Shown here: piece after piece, positions 25,057 to 44,321 of the stretch
Numbering within the stretch: the stretch's first letter is position 1
How the letters are laid out: each line of letters opens with the position of its first letter
From: Alloascoidea africana
Taxonomy: Eukaryota > Ascomycota > Alloascoideomycetes > Alloascoideales > Alloascoideaceae
Direction: 5' to 3'
DNA length: 64,000 nucleotides
NCBI GenBank assembly: GCA_030581615.1
Contig: JAKTTT010000009.1
Coordinates: 1-64,000, forward strand
Program-made: the position numbers and the translations under genes
Notes under the pieces: generated by a model
Told to the model about the DNA's origin: nothing
The model's database searches: none
Seen by the model: the letters and a program-made list of their open reading frames with translations, nothing else

Positions 25057-25509
25057 GATGGAAAGTAGTGTTGAGACAATGCCAGTTCCTAACTGTTATC
25101 CATATTGAAATTTGTATCTTTTAATCTAGGTTGAGTCTACACTGGATGCTTAATCCTTATGCCCCAATTACTATTATGCTGGAATTTGACTTGATAGATC
25201 TTAGTGTAACTTGACATTAACATTTCGCCAAACATTTGAACGGTGTTGCCGGAGAGGGAGGAATGACTCGAAGTGCTGGGCTGTCTATGGGTCGGCGAGG
25301 GAAGAGAATAAATAGAGCCGTGAGAAGGTTTTAACAAGAAACTATGGTTTGAAACCAAGATTTAACAAGTAGCGCAACTAGTGCTGATACATCTTACAGA
25401 CCTGTAATGCGAAGGATGTTAATAAGTGATCCAATCTTACACATACATCTAAAGATTTAGAACTCGGGCTAAAGAATACAAACACAGTAATTAGATCTTT
25501 AAAGATAAA
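25057..25509. other. Intergenic region before F-box gene A
   Basis: About 450 bp with no gene. It should contain the promoter of the F-box gene starting at 25510; no TATA box or known site stands out. Confidence 0.5.
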
Positions 25510-27132
25510 ATGTCAGTTCAAGCTCCAAAATCAAGCAAAAATGATGGCAAACATACATCCCAAGTGACAGATATTAATGCTTTACCCGATGAAATGCTGG
25601 TACATGCCTTTGGATATCTAGATCTGGGTTCGTTCCACCAAGTGGGCTTCGTTTGCAGAAGATGGAAAAGAATTGTTCATAACGACGCTATTTGGGAAGA
25701 TGTTTTTGTTCAGGAGTTTGGCACCAAATCTTTTCCAAGCGTCTCGAAAAGTAAAAGCTGGCGAGAGGAGTACCGCTACAGAAAGTTTTGTCTTCGAAAA
25801 TGGAGTAAAAGGCAACTCACACTTATCGGTCATGATGGAATTATTGACAACTTCGAACCTGACTTTAAAAATAATCGTCATCTGGTATATTCAAAATATA
25901 CTGGTATGGTTGATATCTTTGACCTACATAAGGCAAAGATTTCTGTAAGTGCTCAATTTGAACCTCACAATGTGAATTTTAGTGTCTCTTCATCAGATGC
26001 CTTTGCACTTGAGCTTCAAGATGGCTCAATTAAAACAGTGTTGTTATCACAAGACAAATCCACAAGTTATCATTGTGGTACGCTTTCACCACCCTCACAA
26101 GACAGGTTTACGGCTCTATGCCTCAACAAGCAGGATATCCACAACAACAAAACTTCGCTTTATACTGGAGATAAGGGGGGTAAGATACAAGCTTGGGATC
26201 TCAAACACAGCAAACTGCTTGCGGAATGGCAAGTAAGTACAGACCATCATGCTGTCGTCAATATTTTTGCAGACTTTAAGGGCTCCCTCGTGGCGAGAGA
26301 TAGAACAGGAAATGTGTATTACAAAACTCCACATAGTGACGACTTCACCTTAACAATCCTCAAATGTGCTTTGCCATATTTTCCCGGAAGATCACATAGA
26401 GAGGTCATCTTCAAAGTTGACTTTGCTGCAGGATATTGTATATTAGGGAAGGGCAATGAGATTGTTCGATATGATATGAACCAAAGCCAGGATGGGTTGC
26501 CCAAATGGCCTTCACAGACTCTAAAGCTTGACGCCGCGCTTGGCAAGGACAACAAGCAATTCTTTTTCTACAATTCAATTGATGAGAAATCACTACTGAC
26601 ATACGATAAGTCACTTGTTGGTGGAGGTGCTTGCTTGGCCACTTTGCTGATTGGAACAGGCGAAATTGTCATATTTGACATCCGTCAGCACTCAGATGAC
26701 GAATGGCTGAAGCCGACAGTCATCATTTCGCAGGCTTATTTATCAGATGGGCTTTACGAACCAAATAATGAGCCCTTGAACATGGCCTCCATTTCAAACA
26801 ACTCTCTGGTTCTTTTGGTAGGTCTTTCTGGTGGAAAGAATGGGGGGGCCATTGTGGTGCATGATACCCTCACTGGTTTCAAACTTCTTTCGTTCCGCGT
26901 CAAAATTCCCCCCAAATGTCTCTCAGATGCGATGAATAGATGCTACAATAGGACTGGAGTTGGATTTATCACGCTGGACGATCCAGAGTCGTGTGCTGGA
27001 GCTACTGTTCTAGATGATTGTGCTGTACTTTACTTTACATATGGAAGGAATAGCTTAATCGCGGAAGGAGCTTTCAATAAAAATGGCCTTGACACTACTG
27101 AAGAGGGAAAAACCAGTACAGGCATAAAATAA
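25510..27132 (+). CDS. F-box protein with propeller-like repeats (tandem copy A)
   Basis: A single exon of 540 residues. The F-box lies at residues about 22-70 (INALPDEMLVHAFGYLDL ... VCRRWKRIVHNDAIWEDVF), so the protein probably docks on Skp1 as substrate receptor of an SCF ubiquitin ligase. The remainder is beta-rich, with WD-like strands (SLYTGDKGGKIQAWDLKHSK at about 220, and FDIRQHSDDEWLKP), suggesting a propeller that selects the substrate. No one-to-one Saccharomyces homologue is recognised. Compared with copy B the C-terminus is shorter: the frame stops at 27132, while the following bases still resemble copy B's lysine-rich tail, so the end was lost recently. A block near 26340-26540 is almost identical in all three copies. 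Confidence 0.88.
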   Translation: MSVQAPKSSKNDGKHTSQVTDINALPDEMLVHAFGYLDLGSFHQVGFVCRRWKRIVHNDAIWEDVFVQEFGTKSFPSVSKSKSWREEYRYRKFCLRKWSKRQLTLIGHDGIIDNFEPDFKNNRHLVYSKYTGMVDIFDLHKAKISVSAQFEPHNVNFSVSSSDAFALELQDGSIKTVLLSQDKSTSYHCGTLSPPSQDRFTALCLNKQDIHNNKTSLYTGDKGGKIQAWDLKHSKLLAEWQVSTDHHAVVNIFADFKGSLVARDRTGNVYYKTPHSDDFTLTILKCALPYFPGRSHREVIFKVDFAAGYCILGKGNEIVRYDMNQSQDGLPKWPSQTLKLDAALGKDNKQFFFYNSIDEKSLLTYDKSLVGGGACLATLLIGTGEIVIFDIRQHSDDEWLKPTVIISQAYLSDGLYEPNNEPLNMASISNNSLVLLVGLSGGKNGGAIVVHDTLTGFKLLSFRVKIPPKCLSDAMNRCYNRTGVGFITLDDPESCAGATVLDDCAVLYFTYGRNSLIAEGAFNKNGLDTTEEGKTSTGIK

Positions 27133-28775
27133 AGGATAATTACCAGCGTTGGAGATTTACGAGGATCTTTTTGATAAAGGAGATCAGTGATGTAAAGCCG
27201 AGAATGATTCGAACGAAGACGAAGAAGGAAGGCACGAAGAAATACAAATATGGAGTTACGGACAAATGGGATTAGAGAGTAGTGTTGAAACAACGCCAGT
27301 ACCTGAAAGTCCTAACTGTCATTTGTGTCAAAATTTGTCTCTTATAATTTGTTTTCCCAGAAATCCAGAATGGCATGGATTGAACCTAAACTGAGCGCTT
27401 AGTCCTTTCACATAACACTGCTCCTCAAACCATCCACAGTAATGCTAATGCAATATATTCCTTGCAAAATAATACTGTTAACAATGATTTTACGGTCTTT
27501 ATAAGAGCAATTCCCAGTGTTGAAGAATGAAGTTCATAACTTGGTCTTTTAGCAGTCTGAGTTGGTTAGGTGTATGTGTATTGCAAATAAAACAGAGTAA
27601 AAAATCAGCAAACAAGAAAAAGGGAAATGAAGCCGAATGCTTTTACAAAGAGTGCTCTGATGAGGGACAAGAGTTGTTTTTATGGGAGTAAAATGATGAA
27701 CAAGTACACAAGTATCTGACCAGTGAAAATAATAAAGAATTTTCTTCAAGAGGAAAGAATTAAAGGTTATCTAAATACTGAGGTCTGAATGATACCGCAA
27801 TGCTAAAAAGTGCTGTAACGAAACCATCGCGGAAACCAACAGCTTTCAAAACTGACTAAGGAATAGTGAAATATGGAGAATGTTTGTGACGAGTCTGTAT
27901 ATTGAGGGACGCTTCAAAGCTAAAATAACTGGTCATGTCTAAACACAATTGCTTGATACTTGGTGTAAACGAGAAACGAGTAAAAATGGAACATTCTAGC
28001 AAGACAAAGATCCAATGTACAGCCACTAAGACTGAAAACGACATTGAATTGGGGGTTTGTTTGAGCGTGCCCTTCGGCTTTCGGTTCCAGATCCGATTGT
28101 GTTTTGGCAACAATTGGAATATAGCTTGGAGAATGCTCAAAAACCTGCCGCTGAAGTACCACCAAACTTGAAAGCACAATTGAAATGGTTTGGGAAAACT
28201 ACCTGCCTCTTTTGTCAAAATTTGGTTATTCCTATGCAGATTTTTTTGAGCGATGGACGCCAGACTGTTAGGATACGGATGTCCCTGACTCACGGCATCC
28301 CGGTTTTAGCCGAGTCATTCTTCTATCTATATAGCATTGTTCCTACATATCAATAGACAACCTACTGAAAATGTACATAAATTTTCCTTTAACTCATGTT
28401 AACGAGCCAAAAACTAAGCCAATGGTTGAAAACGTAGCATTCTCATCTCAATCCAACCACATTTATTCCAGGTACATGCTCTTTCCAAATTGTTCAAACA
28501 AGCAAAGAGCAGATGTGTGACTAAAATATTGGAGTGCTGGCTGTTGTCCAAAAATGAGGCAATGAAACACCTAATATACACTGTTTTTAAAAGCAATAGC
28601 CTTCTGTACATTGCTTCTCTTATCTTTGATTTTCGCTCCTCAGTTATAGGTCTCTTAAAATACGATCGCCCAATTAAGCTAATTCCTCTGAGTTTGGGCT
28701 CTTTCGCTGTCCATCTTCACAAAACCCCTTCCTCTGCCTAATGATGAGCAACCAACACTTGCAGACCTTTGATCA
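27133..28775. other. Intergenic region between F-box copies
   Basis: About 1.6 kb. The first 160 bp are the decayed former C-terminal coding end of copy A plus a shared 3' flank; the last 330 bp resemble the promoter region of the pseudogene copy. In between I see no gene; the frames are short and overlap on both strands. Confidence 0.5.
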
Positions 28776-30512
28776 ATGTTAGTAGTTCAAGATCCCAAAT
28801 CAAGCAAAAATGATGGCAAACATACATCCCAGGTGACAGATATAGATATAAACGCTTTACCCGATGAAATACTGGTACATGTCTTTGGGTATCTAGATCT
28901 GGAAAGTTCCCACCAAGTGGGCTCCGTTTGCAGAAGATGGAAAAGAATTGTTCATAACGACGCTATTTGGGAAGAGGTTTTTGTTCAGGAGTTTGGCACC
29001 AAATCTTTTCCAAGCGTCTCGAAAAGTAAAAGCTGGCGAGAGGAGTACCTCTACAGAAAGTTTTGCCTTGGAAAGTGGAGCAAAGGACGACTCACTTCTC
29101 ACGCAATTATTGGCCATTATAGCTTTTTTGAAAACTTTGAAGCTGACTTCAAAAATGATCGCTTGCTGTCATACTCATGCCATGGTAAACTTAATATCGA
29201 TAAGCTACATAAGAAACAGTTTTCTGTGAATATGAATTCTGAACTTTGCAATTCGTATCATGCTGTCGCTTCGCCTGATGCCCTTGCAGTTGAACTTGAA
29301 GACGGCACAATTAGAACAGTTTTACTCTCTCAAGGCAATCCCACAAATTGTATTTATAGCTCACTCTCACCTGTCAATTCTGCAAAATTTCTTGCTGTAT
29401 GTCTTAACAAGCAAAGCATTCACAAAAACAATGTTTCACTGTATACTGGAGACTCGAGGGGCAAGATACATGCTTGGGATCTCAGACACAGCAAAATGCT
29501 AACTGAATGGCAAGTAGAAACAGATGGCTTTGGTATCAGTCATATTTTTGCAGACTTTAAGGGATCTATCTTGGCTAGAGATCTAGGAGGAAGATTGTAC
29601 TACAAGACTCCGCCTAGCAAAGACTTTGTATTAGCAATTTCCGAAAGCATTAGGCTACCTAATCCCGGGCAGATTGTTGTACCAAGCAAAGATTTCATCT
29701 TCAAGGTAGACTTTGCGGCAGGATATTGTGTAATAGGACAGGGCAATGAGATTGTTCGATATGACATGAACCAAAGCCAGGATGGGTTGCCCAGATGGCC
29801 TTCACAGACTCTAAAGCTTGACACCGCGCTTGGTAAGGAAAGCAAGCAGTGCATTGTCGATAGCTCGATTGATGAGACATCACTTCTGACATACGATAAA
29901 TCACTTGTTGGTGGGGATGCCTGTTTGGCCACTGTGTTGGTTAAGACTGGTGAAATTGTCATATTTGACATCCGTCAGCACTCAGATGACGAATGGCTGA
30001 AGCCGACAGCCATCATCAGAGATTATACCTCGGATTCTGATGATCTGCCTATGTACTGGAGAGTTTCTGCGCTTGCAAACAGCTCTTTGGTGGTTATGGT
30101 AGGTCATTTTGGTGAGAAGAAAGATGGGTGCATAATTGTGTATGATGCCCTCGCTGGCACAAGGATTCTTTTATTCTGTACTACAATTCCCAGAAAGGTT
30201 CGTATCCTTCTGCCTGGTCAGATGAGTTCGGCTCGAGTAAGCTTCATTAGACTGGATGGCAATCCCGAGTCCGGGGGTGGAGCTATTGTTATGGGTGGTA
30301 ATACTATTGAATACTTTTGTTATGGGAAGAGTAGCTCAATCGAAGAAGCAAGTATTAGCACAGACAAACGTGGAAGATTGAAACAGAATTGCCAGGCTTG
30401 GAGGTCGATCTTGCGCTTGCCAGAGATCAGTGCTATAAAGCGGAGAATGGCTGAAGCGAGGATAAAGAAGAAAAGCTCGAAAAAAGACACATATGGAGAT
30501 ACAAATAATTGA
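28776..30512 (+). CDS. F-box protein with propeller-like repeats (tandem copy B)
   Basis: A single exon of 578 residues, start MLVVQDPKSSKN at an ATG. The F-box at residues about 25-75 (INALPDEILVHVFGYLDL) is nearly identical to copy A; the middle part is diverged, while the block around residues 305-395 and the VIFDIRQHSDDEWLKP segment are again near-identical. The C-terminus ends in a basic helix rich in Lys (about 545-578) that copies A and pseudo have lost or truncated. The predicted role is an SCF substrate receptor; the substrate is unknown. The pattern of identical and diverged blocks points to gene conversion between copies or strong local constraint. Confidence 0.88.
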   Translation: MLVVQDPKSSKNDGKHTSQVTDIDINALPDEILVHVFGYLDLESSHQVGSVCRRWKRIVHNDAIWEEVFVQEFGTKSFPSVSKSKSWREEYLYRKFCLGKWSKGRLTSHAIIGHYSFFENFEADFKNDRLLSYSCHGKLNIDKLHKKQFSVNMNSELCNSYHAVASPDALAVELEDGTIRTVLLSQGNPTNCIYSSLSPVNSAKFLAVCLNKQSIHKNNVSLYTGDSRGKIHAWDLRHSKMLTEWQVETDGFGISHIFADFKGSILARDLGGRLYYKTPPSKDFVLAISESIRLPNPGQIVVPSKDFIFKVDFAAGYCVIGQGNEIVRYDMNQSQDGLPRWPSQTLKLDTALGKESKQCIVDSSIDETSLLTYDKSLVGGDACLATVLVKTGEIVIFDIRQHSDDEWLKPTAIIRDYTSDSDDLPMYWRVSALANSSLVVMVGHFGEKKDGCIIVYDALAGTRILLFCTTIPRKVRILLPGQMSSARVSFIRLDGNPESGGGAIVMGGNTIEYFCYGKSSSIEEASISTDKRGRLKQNCQAWRSILRLPEISAIKRRMAEARIKKKSSKKDTYGDTNN

Positions 30513-35546: not shown

Positions 35547-38456
35547 ATGAGCCCCACCGATAGAAAACTTTCCAGCGACTCTGCCGGCAGCGACGCCCGT
35601 GCACAAGAGCCACGACCCAGCGTCCCAACCTTCTCCGTCAGGTCTCCTGTCTCAGACTCCTTCTCAGCTGCGCCCTCCGTGCGAAGCAGCGACAGACGGC
35701 CCCAGGGCCCTGGCCGAATTGGGCTCACGCTCACGACCACGAATGGGTCCGATGGCTCTGAGCAGCCGTTGGACTTCACCACGCCCGTGCGCACCCAGGC
35801 CCCCCAGTTCCCGCCGCCCCGGGCTCCCTCAGACACCCCGGACGGCGGCCTCCCACGCCAGCCCGCTATGCCTGGCAACGTCGCCTACGCCGCGGCCGCA
35901 ATGGGCAACGACTCCATGGCCGCCCGGTTCCTGGGGCTCGCGTCCATCGGGCCCGGCGGCCTCGACCCGGGCGCCACGACCGCGGCCGCGGCCGGGTCCG
36001 CCCCGGAGCAGCGCCCCGACGACCTGGAGGCCCAGCTCGGCGCGGCGACCCGCGAGACCACGCGCCACACCTCCGACTCTGGCGCCACAGTCCACGGAAC
36101 ATCCTCGGGCTCGACCCCGAAGCGGCTCGACCAGATCATCAAGAACAGGTTCCTCATTGGCACCAAGCACGCGGACTCGCAGAGCTCGGACAGCTCCAGC
36201 TCCAGCTCCAGCTCCACTTCCTCCCACGAACCCAGAAAGTTTAAACGCACGGGAACTTTTGGCTTTTTGAACAACACGGACCCAAAATCTGTTCTGCTGG
36301 AGAAGAAGCTGAAGGACAGCGAAAAGCGAGGCCGTCTCCGTGGGCTCGACCCCATAGACGAAGACTCCGATTCTGCCCCCGCTGGGAACAGATTTGCCAA
36401 CGTTGTCACAAAAGCTTTCAAGTCCTCTCAGCGCGCTAACGCTAACGCTAACGCCAGCGGTCTCAAGGGCAGAACAACCACTCTTAGTGGTAAGACCCCT
36501 GAGCAGGTCGTGCACGAGGAGGCCGAGGCTCTGCTTAAATCCCATGGCAAGAACTTCCACAAACATAACAATAGCAGTGACAGCTCCTTCAAAGTCGCAA
36601 ACCCAGATTTGTACCTCAGAGATGACTGCGAAATATACGAAGAGCGCGATCGTTGTATCAATGGTAAGCTCATCGAGGGTGACTCTGTAAATACAGATGA
36701 ATATATCGCTCCTCCTTCCCGTGTCCAAGCCGGCGTTTTGGGCTCCATGATGAAACTTTATGGCCATGACGACTCATCCCGAAGCTCCAGTACTTTGGTT
36801 CCTGGTGACTATAGTGGTGCCGTCTCCCCAATGTCTGTGTCGACAAATGGGAGCGCCACACCCAGCGATTCTGAAGACAGAGACAACTCTGCTGTTGATC
36901 TTGGCAAGGTTGATGAGAAGCTGACAAAACACAAGAATCGCAAATCCGTGGACTACAGCCAGCTTAACAAGAAACACAAAAAATCCCCCAGTGCAAACAC
37001 TTCCTCCATCGGTGCCTTTATTTTCTCATCTACCGCTGCTATGAATGCCCCCGGCGATGGAAGTAGCATTGAGCTCCCTTATCAGCCACCTTTGACCAAG
37101 GCAGAGAAGGCCAAGCAGAGACGAAAGGAGAAAGAAGCAAGAATCAAGGTCCATATTGCCCACGTTCTACAGCGCCAGAGATTCATCTTGAGAATGTGTA
37201 AAGCTCTTATGCTCTATGGAGCCCCGACCCACAGACTCGAAGAATACATGAAAATGACTGCCCGTGTTTTGGAAATTGATGGCCAGTTCCTCTATGTTCC
37301 GGGATGCATGATTGTCTCGTTTGGCGATGCCAGTACCAGAACTTCCGAAATGCATCTGGTTCGTTGTGACCAAGGCGTTGACCTGGGCAAGCTGGCAAAC
37401 GTTCATCAGATCTACAAAGCTGTTGTCCACGATGTTATCGGAGTCGAGGAGGCTTCTGAGTACATTGACGACGTGCTGGGCAGGAAACCTCTGTATCCAG
37501 CATGGGTTTGCGTCATTCTTTCGGGTATAGCTTCTGCCCTTGTTACTCCATTCGCCTTTTCGGGCGGCTGGGTAGACATGGGAATCAGTGCCTGTCTCGG
37601 AATCCTCGTTGGTACACTAAGACTGATAGTTGCCCCCCGCTCAAGTCTCTACTCCAACGTTTTTGAAGTGTCCGTTGCCATTCTTGTTAGTTTTCTGGGA
37701 CGCGCTATTGGTTCAGCAGGTTCTAATCAAGATATTTTTTGCTTTTCTGCCATTGCCCAAGGAAGTATTGCTTTGATTTTACCAGGATATACAATTCTTT
37801 GCGGTTCTTTGGAGTTACAATCGAGGAACCTGGTTGCTGGTGCGGTCCGAATGTTTTATGCTATCATCTATTCCCTATTTCTAGGATTTGGTATGACCCT
37901 TGGTGCAGTTCTCTACGGATGGATAGATAAAAATGCAACTTCTCAAACTCAATGTCTTCATGCCGTGAGCGACTACTACAAAATACTGTTTGTTCCGGTT
38001 TACACATTTTGTCTCTCCTTGATCAACCAAGCTGAACTCAGACAAATTCCCGTAATGGTTGTAATCTCCTCCGCAGCCTATGCTGTCAACTATTTTGCAG
38101 GAAAGCATTTTGTCAATAACAACACCGAATTCACTGCGACATGTGGTGCCTTTGTGATTGGAATACTTGGAAACTGTTATTCACGGTTCGGAAAAGGTTT
38201 GGCGGTTGTTTCAATGCTTCCTGCTATCTTTGTCCAGGTTCCAGGTGGTATCGCATCACAGGGCACCCTAATGGCAGGCATCAAAACTGCAGATTCTATT
38301 GTGAAAAACACAACAACAACTTCTGTGTCCTCATCCAGTGTCTCATTCGGTGTAACAATGGTTGAGGTTAGTATTGGAATCTCTGTAGGATTGTTTGCGG
38401 CTGTCATGTGCATCTATCCATTTGGCAAGAAGAGGACAGGTCTGTTTACATTCTAA
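35547..38456 (+). CDS. PRM10: Prm10-like membrane protein, ThrE/DUF1212 family
   Basis: A single exon of 969 residues. Residues 1-530 are disordered and Ser/Asp-rich. From about 540 the conserved cytosolic domain begins (RFILRMCKALMLYGAPTHRLEEYMKMT, the hallmark of the pheromone-regulated membrane protein 10 / threonine-serine exporter-like family), and from about 650 to the end there are roughly ten hydrophobic segments (for example WVCVILSGIASALVTPFAF). In bacteria the family exports threonine; in S. cerevisiae PRM10 is pheromone-induced and of unclear function. The N-terminal part is GC-rich (about 35600-36200) and generates long spurious frames on the other strand. It is longer than S. 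cerevisiae Prm10 (383 residues) but like the long versions in other fungi. Confidence 0.92.
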   Translation: MSPTDRKLSSDSAGSDARAQEPRPSVPTFSVRSPVSDSFSAAPSVRSSDRRPQGPGRIGLTLTTTNGSDGSEQPLDFTTPVRTQAPQFPPPRAPSDTPDGGLPRQPAMPGNVAYAAAAMGNDSMAARFLGLASIGPGGLDPGATTAAAAGSAPEQRPDDLEAQLGAATRETTRHTSDSGATVHGTSSGSTPKRLDQIIKNRFLIGTKHADSQSSDSSSSSSSSTSSHEPRKFKRTGTFGFLNNTDPKSVLLEKKLKDSEKRGRLRGLDPIDEDSDSAPAGNRFANVVTKAFKSSQRANANANASGLKGRTTTLSGKTPEQVVHEEAEALLKSHGKNFHKHNNSSDSSFKVANPDLYLRDDCEIYEERDRCINGKLIEGDSVNTDEYIAPPSRVQAGVLGSMMKLYGHDDSSRSSSTLVPGDYSGAVSPMSVSTNGSATPSDSEDRDNSAVDLGKVDEKLTKHKNRKSVDYSQLNKKHKKSPSANTSSIGAFIFSSTAAMNAPGDGSSIELPYQPPLTKAEKAKQRRKEKEARIKVHIAHVLQRQRFILRMCKALMLYGAPTHRLEEYMKMTARVLEIDGQFLYVPGCMIVSFGDASTRTSEMHLVRCDQGVDLGKLANVHQIYKAVVHDVIGVEEASEYIDDVLGRKPLYPAWVCVILSGIASALVTPFAFSGGWVDMGISACLGILVGTLRLIVAPRSSLYSNVFEVSVAILVSFLGRAIGSAGSNQDIFCFSAIAQGSIALILPGYTILCGSLELQSRNLVAGAVRMFYAIIYSLFLGFGMTLGAVLYGWIDKNATSQTQCLHAVSDYYKILFVPVYTFCLSLINQAELRQIPVMVVISSAAYAVNYFAGKHFVNNNTEFTATCGAFVIGILGNCYSRFGKGLAVVSMLPAIFVQVPGGIASQGTLMAGIKTADSIVKNTTTTSVSSSSVSFGVTMVEVSIGISVGLFAAVMCIYPFGKKRTGLFTF

Positions 38457-39244
38457 TATCCTGTCTGTTTTTGTCAATCTTCAAGCCATTTCACAATTGG
38501 CTGTCCTTGTAGTTAGTCTGCACTCTCATTCTTTCTTGCATTAAACTTTGTATCTATTGTTTGTTCAAGTGAACTTGGTCTTCGTCTCCTCCTTTTTTTT
38601 TATCACTAATTCGTTTGCACTTTTGCTTCTTCATCTATCTCTAGGAAACATTGGAGGAAACTTTGAAAAATACTCATATTGGTTTTTGTCATATTCAGTT
38701 CATCATCTCAAAACAAAATTTGCGGAAATTTTTGGTTTTAGATGGAATTACTAGGAGGTTAGAACAAAGATTTACTTGAACCCAATCGATTCATATCATT
38801 TCCCACCCCATATAATACCATTGCTTTAAAGCATTTGATTTTTGTTACAAAATTAGGATTATATTGATTTTTGTTGTCGATTTGAGAATTTGCTTGTTAA
38901 ACTGGTGGTCACTTTTGCTATATACCCATCTGTGCTATGCCTACGCAATCTTCAGGAAAGTACAGTTTGAAACCGTTCCTCTTCACCAAGCTTTCTTGGT
39001 GATAGGGATTCAGGATCTAAATACACATAATAAACAATAAATAGTTATTGAATTGAACAGGTCATTATGTTTTGTTTTAATGTCAAAAGAAATCACTGTT
39101 ACATGATTCATCACATTCCTTGGAAAGTATAAAGCTCAATTTACGAAGGAAATTCGGTTTTTATTTTTAGGTGAATCTTCTATTCAATCTACACACCTCA
39201 AGTCTGCTTTTTTATATTCCAACCACATATCACAACATGTCTCT
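38457..39244. other. Convergent intergenic region
   Basis: About 790 bp between the 3' ends of PRM10 (plus) and ATP3 (minus). It is AT-rich with short T-runs suitable for two terminators; no gene is seen. Confidence 0.5.
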
Positions 39245-40560
39245 TTACTCCAATGAGGAAGCACCAGTAATAATATCGACCAACTCGTTGGTAATGACGG
39301 CTTGACGGGTTCTATTGTAAAGAATAGAGTATTTGTTGATCATATCACCGGCATTCTTGGAAGCGTTATCCATAGCGTTTCTTCTAGCAGAAATCTCAGA
39401 TGCATGACCTTCGGCCAAAGCAGTGTAGACGGCATTGACAAGACCGAATTCAGAAAGAGGACCGCTAAGAGTGTCATCAATTTCAACATCGTAGACACCT
39501 GCATTTGTGGAAGCCTCAAAGTCTTTTGCAGTGTAAACAGGCTTCAAAGTAGGGTCAAACGAAACACCAGAAGCAAACTTGTTGTAGAAAATCTCAATGG
39601 TCTCGTATTCCTTGCCCAACTTGTTAATCTCGTCAACAACAAGAGCAGCCTCGGTGAAGGTAGGGACCTCTTTACCAATGCCGGAGAATGTGAGAACGAG
39701 GTTTGAAGGATGAGTTCGGGACAACTGAACCTTGAGTTTCTCGCCAATCGCGACAACGTCGGCTTCAGGGAACTCGGCCAATCTTGCTCTTGCTTGACGA
39801 GCGATGGACGAGTGGATAGAACCACAGAGACCCTTGTCCGAGGTGGCCGCAATGATCAATTTCTTGCCCTCTGGAGTCTCTGGCAATTTTGTATCGGCGG
39901 TCTTGTAAACCTCCCCGTCGGCACTTCCATAATTACGGGAAACAGCCATTGCTCGCTGGGCCTTGTTGAGCTTTGTCGAAGCAACGATCTTCATGGTTGC
40001 TGTGATCTTCTCAATGTTCTTAATCGACTTGAGACGGGTCTCAATCTCACGAAGGGTGGCATAGTTTCTAGAAAAAAAGAAAATGAAAGCAGCCGGAAAA
40101 GGAGAGGGACACCTCTCCGTTCGCCAGCAACAGTCACACAAAAATAGAAATAGTTAACAATTGGTGAAAACAGTGGTTTTGGGAAAATTGGCACTTTGCT
40201 ATCTCGTTTTTTCATGGCAGGTTGAATGTTGTCCAATCAAGACCAATCGAATCCTCAGATATTCCGAGGCACACACAGATCGACTCAAGAATGAAAAACC
40301 ATTCAGATCCCGGATATATTCCACGCCCGGATAAAGACCATACAAGAAAGGTGTGCAAAGGGATTGACGAATTCGCTATACGAGGCCCAGGAAGCGGATT
40401 GGTCCCTTGCTCCGGGGTAGGGAAGGAAGGAAGGAAGGAAGGAAGCAGCTGGCAACGTTCAACCTGGAAAAAACAAAACGGCAAGCCGGCGGGAAAAGAC
40501 ATACCTGGTGGACGCCTTTGCGGCATTGGCAGCAGTCAAACCTAAACGAGTAGCGAACAT
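39245..40560 (-). CDS. ATP3: Mitochondrial ATP synthase gamma subunit, two exons
   Basis: The central-stalk gamma subunit of F1-ATPase couples rotation of the c-ring to ATP formation. Exon 1 is 40560-40505 (MFATRLGLTAANAAKAST, the start of the mitochondrial presequence), the intron 40504-40068 is 437 bp (GTATGT...TTTCTAG), and exon 2 is 40067-39245; the product has 292 residues. The mature part opens NYATLREIETRLKSIKNIEKI and closes with the diagnostic C-terminus YSILYNRTRQAVITNEL followed by VDIITGASS. ITNELVDIITGA is the gamma-subunit signature. The intron is several times longer than others in the window and contains a (GGAA)n tract at 40421-40445. Confidence 0.96.
40421..40445. repeat. 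GGAA microsatellite inside the ATP3 intron
   Basis: About six tandem copies of GGAA on the plus strand, lying within the long ATP3 intron. Confidence 0.9.
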
Positions 40561-40747
40561 GGCAAGGGGATCGGGAATCAGTCGAGTTCAGTCTGGATGC
40601 GACGGGAGAAGGAGAGGACTTGTTTCCTGAGAGTGAGGGCGACGACCGGAAAAAGACGATCCAGATTGGACGGCCCGCCGGTTACGCACCCGCGCGTAAA
40701 ACACAGCACACATGACTAATACATTAGCTAATAACACCCGCACACCC

Positions 40748-42209
40748 CTACACCATGTCTCCGACGTTCATGGGCATTTCGTCGATCTGGGTGCTGTAGT
40801 ACTGCTCGATGTCGTGGAGCACCTGGACGTCCTCCTCGGTCACAAAGTTGATCGCCACGCCCTTGCGCCCGAACCGCCCGCTGCGGCCGATGCGGTGGAT
40901 GTAGTTCTCCCGGTCGTTCGGCAAGTCGTAGTTGATCACGAGAGACACCTGCTGGACGTCGATTCCTCGAGCCCACACATCGGTCGAAATCAGCACTCTT
41001 GAGTTGCCCGTGCGAAAGTCGTTCATCACCGAGTCCCGCTCCTTCTGGGACATGTCTCCGTGCATCGAGATCACGGTGAAGTTGGCCTCTTTGAGCTTTT
41101 CTGTCAGCCAGTCCACCTTCCTCTTTGTGTTGCAAAATATCACGGCCTGGGTAATGGTCAACGTATCGTAGAGATCGCATAGAGTGTCAAACTTCCAATC
41201 CTCCTTCTCCACCGCTATAAAATACTGCTTCAGGCCTTCCAATGTCAGCTCGTCTCTCTTTACCAGAATCCTCACTGGGTCTGTCATGAACTTGGTCGTC
41301 ATATCCAGCACATCTCTAGGCAATGTTGCACTGACCACCACCACCTGCGTTCCTGGAGCCAAGTATCGATATACATCATAAATCTGGGTTTGGAATCCTT
41401 TGCTCAAGAGTTCGTCGGCCTCATCCAAAATCAGCATTTTGATGTGTCTCGCCCGTAGGTGTCGTCTTCTAATCATATCGGCCACTCGTCCGGGCGTTCC
41501 ACTCACAATATGTTGTCCATAATCCAGCTTGCGAATATCCTCTCCAACGTTCGTTCCACCGATACACGCGTGGCATTGAAGGTTCATGTGTTGACCCAGT
41601 GCCATAACAACACTCTGGATCTGGACAGCAAGCTCTCTTGTCGGACTTAGAACAAGTGCCTGTGTCTCCCTAAGCTTTGTATCTATCACCTCTAACATGC
41701 CAATAGTGAACGTTGCCGTTTTACCTGTGCCCGATTGCGCTTGTGCTATAGTATCACGACCCGAGATTATCTGGGTTATTGCCCGCGATTGAATTGCACT
41801 TGGCTGTTCAAAACCATACGCATATATCCCTCGCAGCAAGTCATCTAAAAGAAATTAGCGAAAAAAGATCAGTTTGCAAACTCCTGTGTATGTTCTGTTC
41901 GTACCTTTCAGATTCATAGCCTCGACTACAAAACGTGTTAGAAAAATATTGCTTCATATAATGAATAATTCGTTATTTGATACATACACGTAGGCACACT
42001 AGAAACCCATTTTTTTAAAAAAAAAAATGTTAGACAATAGAAGCACCTATACAACATGGCTTATGTTGAATCCTTCATACACTTCGACACTTTTGGATGT
42101 TGTGAATTCGAGCTCATCTGTCATGAACAAGAATATTAGTATAAATATATAAATAAGAATTAAACCATTTTGTGCCCAGCTCACCATCTGCGTCTCTGTC
42201 AAAGTCCAT
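40748..42209 (-). CDS. FAL1: DEAD-box helicase Fal1 (eIF4A3-like), five exons with an 11-nt micro-exon
   Basis: Fal1/eIF4A3 is an ATP-dependent RNA helicase acting in 18S rRNA maturation in yeast and in the exon junction complex elsewhere. Exons: 42209-42185, 42117-42081, 41998-41988 (11 nt), 41925-41905 (21 nt) and 41844-40748; introns are 67, 82, 62 and 60 bp with donors GTGAGC, GTATGA, GTATGT, GTACGA and branch sites TACTAAT or CTAAC. The spliced protein has 396 residues (S. cerevisiae 399) and starts [20 protein letters not shown], then VVPTFEAMNLKDDLL, where VPT comes from the micro-exon and restores the family motif TPTFDTM/STFESM. Helicase motifs: Q motif [30 protein letters not shown], and [13 protein letters not shown]. 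The 5' end lies only 94 bp from the stop of the next gene upstream. Confidence 0.95.
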
Positions 42210-42302
42210 TTTGTGCTGTTTTTTCAGATCCGTAAAGTCTTGTAGACACGACCCAAGAAAAAAGAAAAGTCCTCTTCAAGCAAGATGCAGGGTGGTTGGG
42301 TG

Positions 42303-44321
42303 TTACGAATAAAGCTTTTCCAAATCCATCTGGCGGCGCCATTTGGGTCCCATCACTCGGATCAGAACCAGGCAGATCGAGCTGGCGAACGCCAGACACG
42401 CACACATTGTCCCCGTCATTCCTATTCCCATGGTTTCCAGCTGGGATGCGTTCGTAAAAGTGGATACTGCTCCCAGAGTCATTCGCACCAGGTTGTTGAG
42501 AGCCACACCACTGGCGCCTCTTCCAGGCAGCGCATCCACAAGATATGTCACAGTGGTACCAAACACTATCATTGAGCCAAACCCGAAAAGTGAAGTCCCT
42601 ATCAAGGGTATAACCCAATGTACCTTTGCGTTCAAAGTCCAGGAAAATATGAGAAGCGCAATTGGGTAGACAAACGCCGCTAAAAGCGAGTTTTCTGAAA
42701 TTCGTTCCTCAGGAATAAGGACTCCATTGTTTTTCCTCTGTTGTCTTTTGACTATGTAGTCTGACCACCGCCCGCCAAAAACAGATGCAATGATATAGGC
42801 CACAGAGTTTGGAATATAGAGTAATCCAACAATAACGACAGAAAAGTTATACGGTGGTCTTGAGTAGCCGTATTCCACCGTCATGTTGACGTAGTAGAGC
42901 GAGAAAAAACATATGCCGGTGTAGATTATGGAAAGCGGCACTGGAGGATAGGTTAAGAATTTAATCGTCTTCAATGGCGAGTAGCCATAAATGTATAATG
43001 TTTCGCGTAATTGATTTTTCCAATCTGATTGCTTGTCTGTTTGATCTTCCCCAGGTTTCTGCTCAAAATCTTCTTCTTCTTCTTCTTCTTCTTCTTTCTC
43101 CTCAAGTTGTGCTTGATCCTCGAGATCTGTCACTGGCTTGGGCTCTTTGAACGAGGAATACGTCATGGCTGGATATAGGACGTCAGCAACAAATTCCTCC
43201 TCTCCCGTTCGAGTGGATCTAGCTGATCTGAATGACCTCACGGATTTGGCTATTTGAACTCTTGAGAGAGAGGGACTAGTGCTGGAATGCTCTTGTATGG
43301 AATCTGTAGGTTCCTGCCTTTCCTCACAATGACTCGTGGGTTTGGTCAAAACCTGCTCTTCTGTCCGTAAAGTCTCTGGTAAGGCAAAGACCAAAAAGAT
43401 CAAAATCAGTCCAGCCATAACCAACAAGAACCACTGGGTTGACCGCCATCCCCATTTCCCAGCAAGCAGTCCACCGAATATAGGCGAGAACAACGGTCCC
43501 ATCAATGGACCCAGGTAGTACAGTCCCATTGCTTTTCCTCTTTCAGTGGGGACATATATATCGGCAATTGTGCCTGCTCCTACAGCCTGAACAGAAGCAA
43601 CGCAACCGCCAGACAAAACTCTGAATCCCAACAGCATTCCTATTGAATTCGAAAGCGCACACCCTATGCTGAACACCACAAACAAGAAAAATGAAATAAT
43701 GTAAACTGTTCGCCGTCCTTTCCTCTCCGAAATTGTGGACCACCACATGGGGAAAATGCCAAGCGATAAAATGAAAATGCCAAAGGTAATGTTTACCATT
43801 GATCTCGTCGTATTCAACTCCTCTGCCACATCCGAAATAGCAGGCAGTATAATCGAGGTACCCATAGGACCAACCATCGATGCTGCAGCGATCGTTATGA
43901 CTACCAAATGTTTGATGGATTCAGGATACAGCCGTGGATCTTTGTACTCGGGAACGAGGCTCAGTTGGGCGAGCAAGCCTCTTCTCAACGACCTCGGTAC
44001 CTCTAGAGATGGCTCAAACACAGAGAGTCTTGACTTTACACTTAAAAGTTGATTTGTAGGCTGTCTCGCGATACCATTCCCGGTGCCGTTTGTAGGAGCG
44101 GAGTTTAGCGGAGCAGGTGAAAAAGACGAGGAAGACCGTTCAACCTCCCGATGATGTTTCACATTTGAAGAGCTTAGCACGCTTCTTTTTGTATTTGATC
44201 GTTGGATAACTGGCTCCTGGGTCAACTGGACAGGCTCTGAAAGTGATGTCCGGTCATCTTCAGGATACTCATCGATGCTTCGCGAGGAGCTGCTTTTTAT
44301 TGAGCTGTTGGACTGGTGCAT
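42303..44321 (-). CDS. MFS drug:H+ antiporter, Qdr3/Dtr1-like (copy 1)
   Basis: A single exon of 672 residues; a plasma-membrane exporter of the DHA1 family with 12 predicted helices. A Ser-rich cytosolic N-terminus of about 125 residues is followed by the first six helices (GPMGTSIILPAISDVAEEL, SERKGRRTVY loop motif, LSGGCVASVQAVGAGTIADI antiporter-type motif C region). A long acidic central loop (about 345-450, with EEEEEEEED encoded by a TTC repeat at 43071-43095) precedes helices 7-12. In S. cerevisiae this group handles polyamines, monocarboxylic acids, quinidine or dityrosine; the substrate here cannot be told. A paralogue lies at 55139-57085. Confidence 0.9.
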   Translation of the reverse strand: MHQSNSSIKSSSSRSIDEYPEDDRTSLSEPVQLTQEPVIQRSNTKRSVLSSSNVKHHREVERSSSSFSPAPLNSAPTNGTGNGIARQPTNQLLSVKSRLSVFEPSLEVPRSLRRGLLAQLSLVPEYKDPRLYPESIKHLVVITIAAASMVGPMGTSIILPAISDVAEELNTTRSMVNITFGIFILSLGIFPMWWSTISERKGRRTVYIISFFLFVVFSIGCALSNSIGMLLGFRVLSGGCVASVQAVGAGTIADIYVPTERGKAMGLYYLGPLMGPLFSPIFGGLLAGKWGWRSTQWFLLVMAGLILIFLVFALPETLRTEEQVLTKPTSHCEERQEPTDSIQEHSSTSPSLSRVQIAKSVRSFRSARSTRTGEEEFVADVLYPAMTYSSFKEPKPVTDLEDQAQLEEKEEEEEEEEDFEQKPGEDQTDKQSDWKNQLRETLYIYGYSPLKTIKFLTYPPVPLSIIYTGICFFSLYYVNMTVEYGYSRPPYNFSVVIVGLLYIPNSVAYIIASVFGGRWSDYIVKRQQRKNNGVLIPEERISENSLLAAFVYPIALLIFSWTLNAKVHWVIPLIGTSLFGFGSMIVFGTTVTYLVDALPGRGASGVALNNLVRMTLGAVSTFTNASQLETMGIGMTGTMCACLAFASSICLVLIRVMGPKWRRQMDLEKLYS

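Follow-up and report, generated by a model that had tools for sequence, protein, structure and literature searches.

Predicted 11-nt micro-exon at the intron-rich 5′ end of a budding-yeast FAL1 (eIF4A3) gene

Introduction

Fungal micro-exons have been little characterised, according to the part of a Trichoderma study that is cited here, which also describes a 20-nt "switch" micro-exon of Xlr2 that codes for part of a conserved domain, was missed by annotation and is regulated by glucose (PMC11121469). The FAL1 gene described below likewise has a short internal exon, the inclusion of which is predicted to be constitutive, in contrast to the glucose regulation reported for Xlr2. Among budding yeasts, the cited sections of a study on Yarrowia lipolytica show that the internal exons of multi-intron genes are mostly short, the shortest exon, 4 nt in YALI0E34170g, being validated by two cDNAs (PMC2911113). 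FAL1 resembles these genes in having very short internal coding exons, which are modelled here, in contrast to that cDNA-validated exon; the term FAL1 is absent from the main text of that paper. In Geotrichum candidum, 3,830 introns (0.56 per gene) with a median of 71 nt and loosely conserved 5′ splice and branch sites were described (PMC4479816), and the genome is 24.2 Mb (PMC5499181). Compared with these values, the genome analysed here has 23.2 Mb and a median intron of 72 nt (82 introns).

Human eIF4A3 (DDX48) is the same family member as FAL1, and the N-terminus of Saccharomyces cerevisiae Fal1 is like that of FAL1. The FAL1 product is considered here also as a candidate component of the exon junction complex (EJC). 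As far as the quoted part of a comparative study goes, Mago and Y14 occur in seven Saccharomycotina species, PYM is confined to species with an EJC, and S. cerevisiae has lost Mago and Y14 (PMC6351623). By contrast, MAGO is present in the genome analysed here, as is a gene for a Y14-like RRM protein.

Structure and identity of FAL1

We analysed a window of 64,000 nucleotides, that is, the whole stretch of DNA in which FAL1 lies, together with the genome to which it belongs (23.18 Mb, 138 contigs). A sequence-only reading of the window had proposed that the N-terminus of an eIF4A3-like helicase is assembled from pieces of 25, 37, 11 and 21 nt joined to a main exon. All of these pieces were found on the minus strand at the positions given in Table 1, and the spliced frame, rebuilt from the window, was open over 396 codons, giving a protein of 396 amino acids. 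The introns follow coding nucleotides 25, 62, 73 and 94. Thus, the claim of four introns in the first 60 codons held for their number, and their spacing was actually tighter, since all four fall within the first 32 codons.

Table 1. Predicted features of the FAL1 gene (positions in the window)
Feature	Positions	Strand	Description
Exon 1	42185..42209	-	25 nt, ATG at 42209; codes for MDFDRDAD + G; placed by alignment with S. cerevisiae Fal1, outside the human alignment
Intron 1	42118..42184	-	67 nt, phase 1, GTGAGC..CAG; CTAAT branch site 42139-42135
Exon 2	42081..42117	-	37 nt; codes for 11 residues between split codons D and V; placed by rebuilt frame and human alignment
Intron 2	41999..42080	-	82 nt, phase 2, GTATGA..TAG; CTAAC 42033-42029
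Micro-exon 3	41988..41998	-	11 nt, TGTGCCTACGT; codes for (V)VPT(F); TTTCTAG before, GTATGT after
Intron 3	41926..41987	-	62 nt, phase 1, GTATGT..TAG; CTAAC 41941-41937
Exon 4	41905..41925	-	21 nt; codes for (F)EAMNLK(D)
Intron 4	41845..41904	-	60 nt, phase 1, GTACGA..TAG; CTAAT 41858-41854
Exon 5	40748..41844	-	1,097 nt including the stop codon; DEAD and Helicase_C domains
In-frame ATG within intron 1	42122..42124	-	possible alternative start MTDELEF..., intron 1 then unneeded

The rebuilt gene also bore out the description of the 11-nt exon as lying between TTTCTAG and GTATGT, keeping phase and supplying V-P-T: the exon is internal and short, a GT..AG intron lies on either side of it, and the frame is preserved across it. 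A 24-base stretch spanning it occurs only once in the genome. At this site human eIF4A3 has V-T-P-T-F, so that P, T and the following F match, and V replaces T in FAL1, a difference of one residue that refines the view of V-P-T as exactly the residues of the family.

When the protein was compared with solved structures (PDB), human eIF4A3 entries were the best matches (E 2.1e-211, 705 bits), with an ungapped alignment of 387 residues (residues 10-396), in agreement with the identity proposed from the sequence alone. The scores were 579 bits with eIF4A-I and 521 bits with yeast eIF4A, and the gene is assigned to eIF4A3/Fal1 rather than to eIF4A because 705 bits were reached with eIF4A3 as against 579 with eIF4A-I. 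Both domain profiles were matched (PF00270, E 2.8e-44; PF00271, E 2.1e-37), and the next matches in the genome itself were two eIF4A-like genes with 65% identity. Searched against the genome_contigs set, the main exon gave one match, a DEAD-box gene of a bacterial MAG with 35% identity, and no yeast relative; the same exon had no match in viral_contigs, and megablast of 38000-44000 against plasmids gave none. Among plasmid proteins, FAL1 matched 553 records, all below 60% identity and bacterial among the matches listed (5 of 553). The titles and abstracts of the literature matches listed hold no description of a FAL1 micro-exon. Taken together, the gene is very probably the eIF4A3/FAL1 of a budding yeast that has retained introns and probably branched off early, with four short 5′ coding exons, one of them a micro-exon predicted to be constitutive.

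Splice signals and chance tests

Each FAL1 intron contains a single CTAAC or CTAAT, and a scan with four motifs showed no further site. In introns 1-4, the distance of the branch A is 48, 50, 49 and 49 nt to the 5′ splice site and 18, 31, 12 and 10 nt to the 3′ splice site, the latter intervals being free of AG. Among comparison introns of 90 nt or less, 33 of 52 have CTAAC or CTAAT, with median distances of 47 nt (5′) and 15 nt (3′), and 19 have neither; the 31 nt between branch site and acceptor in intron 2 exceeds the longest such distance in the 33 introns compared (28 nt). The motif is missing from the last 60 nt of 26 of the 82 modelled introns, indicating that it is common and not universal. 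As for the donors, GTATGT, which follows the micro-exon, is the commonest in the modelled set (21/82), and those of introns 2 and 3 (GTATGA and GTATGT) are good. On the other hand, the donors of intron 1 (GTGAGC) and intron 4 (GTACGA) are weak, with 7% and 13% of the 82 modelled introns, respectively, scoring equal or lower.

The DNA upstream of the main exon was matched to the N-terminus of human eIF4A3 by dynamic programming, in which up to four GT..AG introns of 40-150 nt were allowed. With three introns the best score was 65, rising to 66 when a fourth was added, and the junctions of introns 2-4 were recovered exactly as first proposed. Note that the fourth intron of this match (42247-42113) added a single point and differs from intron 1 of Table 1. 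None of 500 dinucleotide shuffles of the 5′ end reached 66 (mean 7.2, maximum 31). For the micro-exon, the outer splice sites were kept in place and the length was set to 11; none of 1,000 dinucleotide shuffles equalled either the residue score or the total score, a test that is post hoc because the exon length came from the observed model. An open AG-11-GT candidate of some kind appeared in 144 of these 1,000 shuffles, and the real DNA has one. In addition, a generic spliced aligner, which was applied to the other genes as well, returned the 11-nt exon with human eIF4A3 as reference, and did so also with the N-terminus of S. cerevisiae Fal1.

Micro-exons elsewhere in the genome

The survey of other genes covered 25 modelled intron-containing genes, namely FAL1, MAGO, two alpha-tubulins, a beta-tubulin, 8 E2-enzyme genes picked from 26 matched places and 12 small-GTPase genes picked from 70. 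This set is enriched for introns, because most of the picks were places with fragmented or incomplete matches. Two of the models (L061 and L066) begin at the edge of their stretch, and edge pieces were excluded from the count of internal exons. The 82 introns modelled, some of which, beside terminal exons, are weak models (e.g., GTCTTG in L054, which affects the 26-nt exon of that gene), had a median length of 72 nt. Six of the 61 internal exons were 15 nt or shorter (6, 7, 9, 9, 11 and 14 nt), four of them below 11 nt, and 16 of the 61 were 30 nt or shorter. The FAL1 micro-exon is therefore one of several in this genome and is not the shortest. Exons this short had been considered rare in budding yeasts, a claim that fails in this genome, and the cited part of the Y. 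lipolytica study includes the 4-nt exon mentioned above (PMC2911113).

The alpha-tubulin paralogues (L050 on contig C68 and L051 on contig C21) each have a 9-nt internal exon coding for V-G-Q, TCGGCCAAG and TTGGCCAGG, flanked by introns of 308 and 135 nt in one gene and 271 and 155 nt in the other; no shuffle in 1,000 reached either exon. The beta-tubulin gene (L048, contig C2) has a 14-nt internal exon (0/1,000 shuffles); its coding sequence starts with an exon of 12 nt and is interrupted by five introns within 52 codons. A Rho-type GTPase gene (L065, contig C6) has a probable 6-nt exon coding for E-Y, for which 0 of 1,000 shuffles reached the total score and 5 the residue score. The least sure case is a possible 7-nt exon in a UBE2K-like gene (L053, contig C7), coding for K-D and part of Y: the real DNA contains two candidates, and 2 and 46 of 1,000 shuffles reached the total and residue scores, respectively. 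We also observed that two Rab5-like paralogues (L063 and L066) have identical internal exon sizes of 20, 27, 98, 94 and 123 nt, so that short exons seem to outlast gene duplication.

Exon junction complex genes

The MAGO gene (L026) has five introns in the part modelled, and its last coding exon consists of four codons (IKPI) and the stop. The Y14-like RRM protein showed 54% identity over 87 residues. PYM scored above the cut-off in this genome, and two bacterial control genomes scored below it. The UPF3 gene adjoins a THP1 gene (L052, C19:288500-293500; Thp1 match E 9.7e-35), an adjacency kept across much of Saccharomycotina according to the excerpted source (PMC6351623). For Barentsz/MLN51, neither the genome nor the controls gave a match, and none was found in yeasts in the cited portion of the same study (PMC6351623). 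Given that MAGO, UPF3, PYM and a Y14-like gene are present, the FAL1 product may plausibly serve as the eIF4A3 of the EJC as well as a ribosome-maturation factor.

Inclusion and origin of the micro-exon

The micro-exon is needed for the protein, because skipping exon 3 alone shifts the frame and leads to a stop at codon 29, and its last base begins the codon of the conserved phenylalanine upstream of the Q motif. We propose that the micro-exon is included constitutively, since each short flanking intron would be recognised by itself, i.e., by intron definition. The two introns that flank it would presumably be spliced out sequentially, because simultaneous occupation of the two neighbouring splice sites would probably need more room than 11 nt. 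With intron phases of 1, 2, 1 and 1, exons 2 and 3 together make up a unit of 48 nt running from phase 1 to phase 1, which was perhaps once one exon, and insertion of intron 2 into this unit may have created the micro-exon. In the two eIF4A-like paralogues N-terminal introns were not found, and these genes therefore neither support nor date the introns of FAL1.

Alternative readings

The micro-exon could be a chance AG-11-GT, with a true protein that differs at this place, for instance by joining exon 1 in frame to exon 4 or exon 5. The frame is indeed kept when exons 2 and 3, exon 4, or exons 2-4 are skipped; however, such forms drop residues that are common to human eIF4A3, and neither the shuffles of the exon (0/1,000) nor those of the whole chain (0/500) yielded anything equally good, and we regard a chance origin as extremely improbable. 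Somewhat more weight is due to a doubt about the start of the gene. There is less certainty about exon 1 and intron 1, because the in-frame ATG within intron 1 provides an alternative start, and they lie outside the alignment with human eIF4A3, being based on splice signals and on the N-terminus of S. cerevisiae Fal1. The gene would then have three introns and start with MTDELEF... at this ATG (42124-42122), with exon 1 and intron 1 unused or used in some transcripts only. This ATG shares the reading frame of exon 2, the resulting protein is open, the donor of intron 1 is weak, and no more than 93 nt lie between 42209 and the end of the upstream gene on this strand. Specifically, these 93 nt (42210-42302) separate the stop of an MFS transporter gene from the first ATG of FAL1, and the transcription start is thus uncertain and the promoter space short. 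Against a start within intron 1, MDFDRDAD of exon 1 lines up ungapped with MSFDREED of S. cerevisiae Fal1, and the CTAAT branch site of intron 1 is normally spaced and its acceptor is CAG; a three-intron gene is accordingly rather unlikely, and the four-intron gene of Table 1 is preferred.

A further alternative to constitutive inclusion is a regulated micro-exon, in which skipping of exon 3 or retention of an intron would give a premature stop and nonsense-mediated decay (NMD), by which eIF4A3 would control its own mRNA. Autoregulation had indeed been suggested on the grounds that a splicing-linked gene is splice-dense at its 5′ end. Stops do follow both from exon 3 skipping (at codon 29) and from retention of any single FAL1 intron (by codon 48), and MAGO, the Y14-like gene, UPF3 and PYM are in the genome. 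However, frame-shifting skips and retained introns are expected to give stops in most intron-containing genes, so that the premature stops allow control by alternative splicing and NMD and do not argue for it. The density itself found no specific support as a hint of autoregulation and is not special to a splicing-linked gene, because unrelated genes of the same genome are equally dense: four introns lie within the first 94 coding nucleotides of FAL1, 93 of both alpha-tubulins and 104 of the beta-tubulin. Moreover, in the cited part of one study Y14-Mago was reported not to trigger NMD in Y. lipolytica (PMC6351623). We thus consider a regulated micro-exon very unlikely and retain constitutive inclusion as the preferred reading. 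It would likewise be a long shot to suppose that an EJC deposited on removal of the first intron helps to define and remove the second across the micro-exon, by which eIF4A3 would be needed for the splicing of its own mRNA and retained micro-exons would be linked with the EJC. A role of the EJC in the removal of neighbouring introns is reportedly known from a Drosophila study.

Implications for gene models

The above survey suggests that internal exons of about 6-14 nt are also in use in budding yeasts that have kept more of their introns. Fal1, tubulins and other conserved proteins would therefore be truncated or mis-started in gene models without micro-exons. The 11-nt exon would probably escape gene finders that pass over very short exons, as had been expected. 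The FAL1 micro-exon is in this sense a lesson for gene annotation and not a new kind of biology, as coding pieces of equal or smaller size apparently occur in other genes here. Such a yeast may offer a simple setting for asking how a spliceosome that relies on intron definition copes with exons whose two splice sites are too close to be bound at once, and also whether a retained EJC matters for micro-exon splicing.

Other features of the window and the genome

An ATP synthase gamma gene adjoins FAL1, and its best PDB matches were 5lqx and 5fl7, presumably Ogataea and Yarrowia entries, followed by entries that are presumably from S. cerevisiae, an order of matches consistent with a budding yeast. 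A scan of the window for tRNA genes (bacterial setting) and an Rfam scan of the window gave no matches. On the plus strand, an open reading frame at 1572-2684 contains a partial reverse transcriptase domain, RVT_2 (profile positions 161-236 of 244), presumably of the copia type. Also on the plus strand, two F-box genes lie next to each other (25495-27132 and 28773-30512) and are possibly tandem paralogues. Elsewhere in the genome, two U2 snRNA genes (L013 and L014, C3:335870-336822) with equal scores lie about 570 bases apart on opposite strands.
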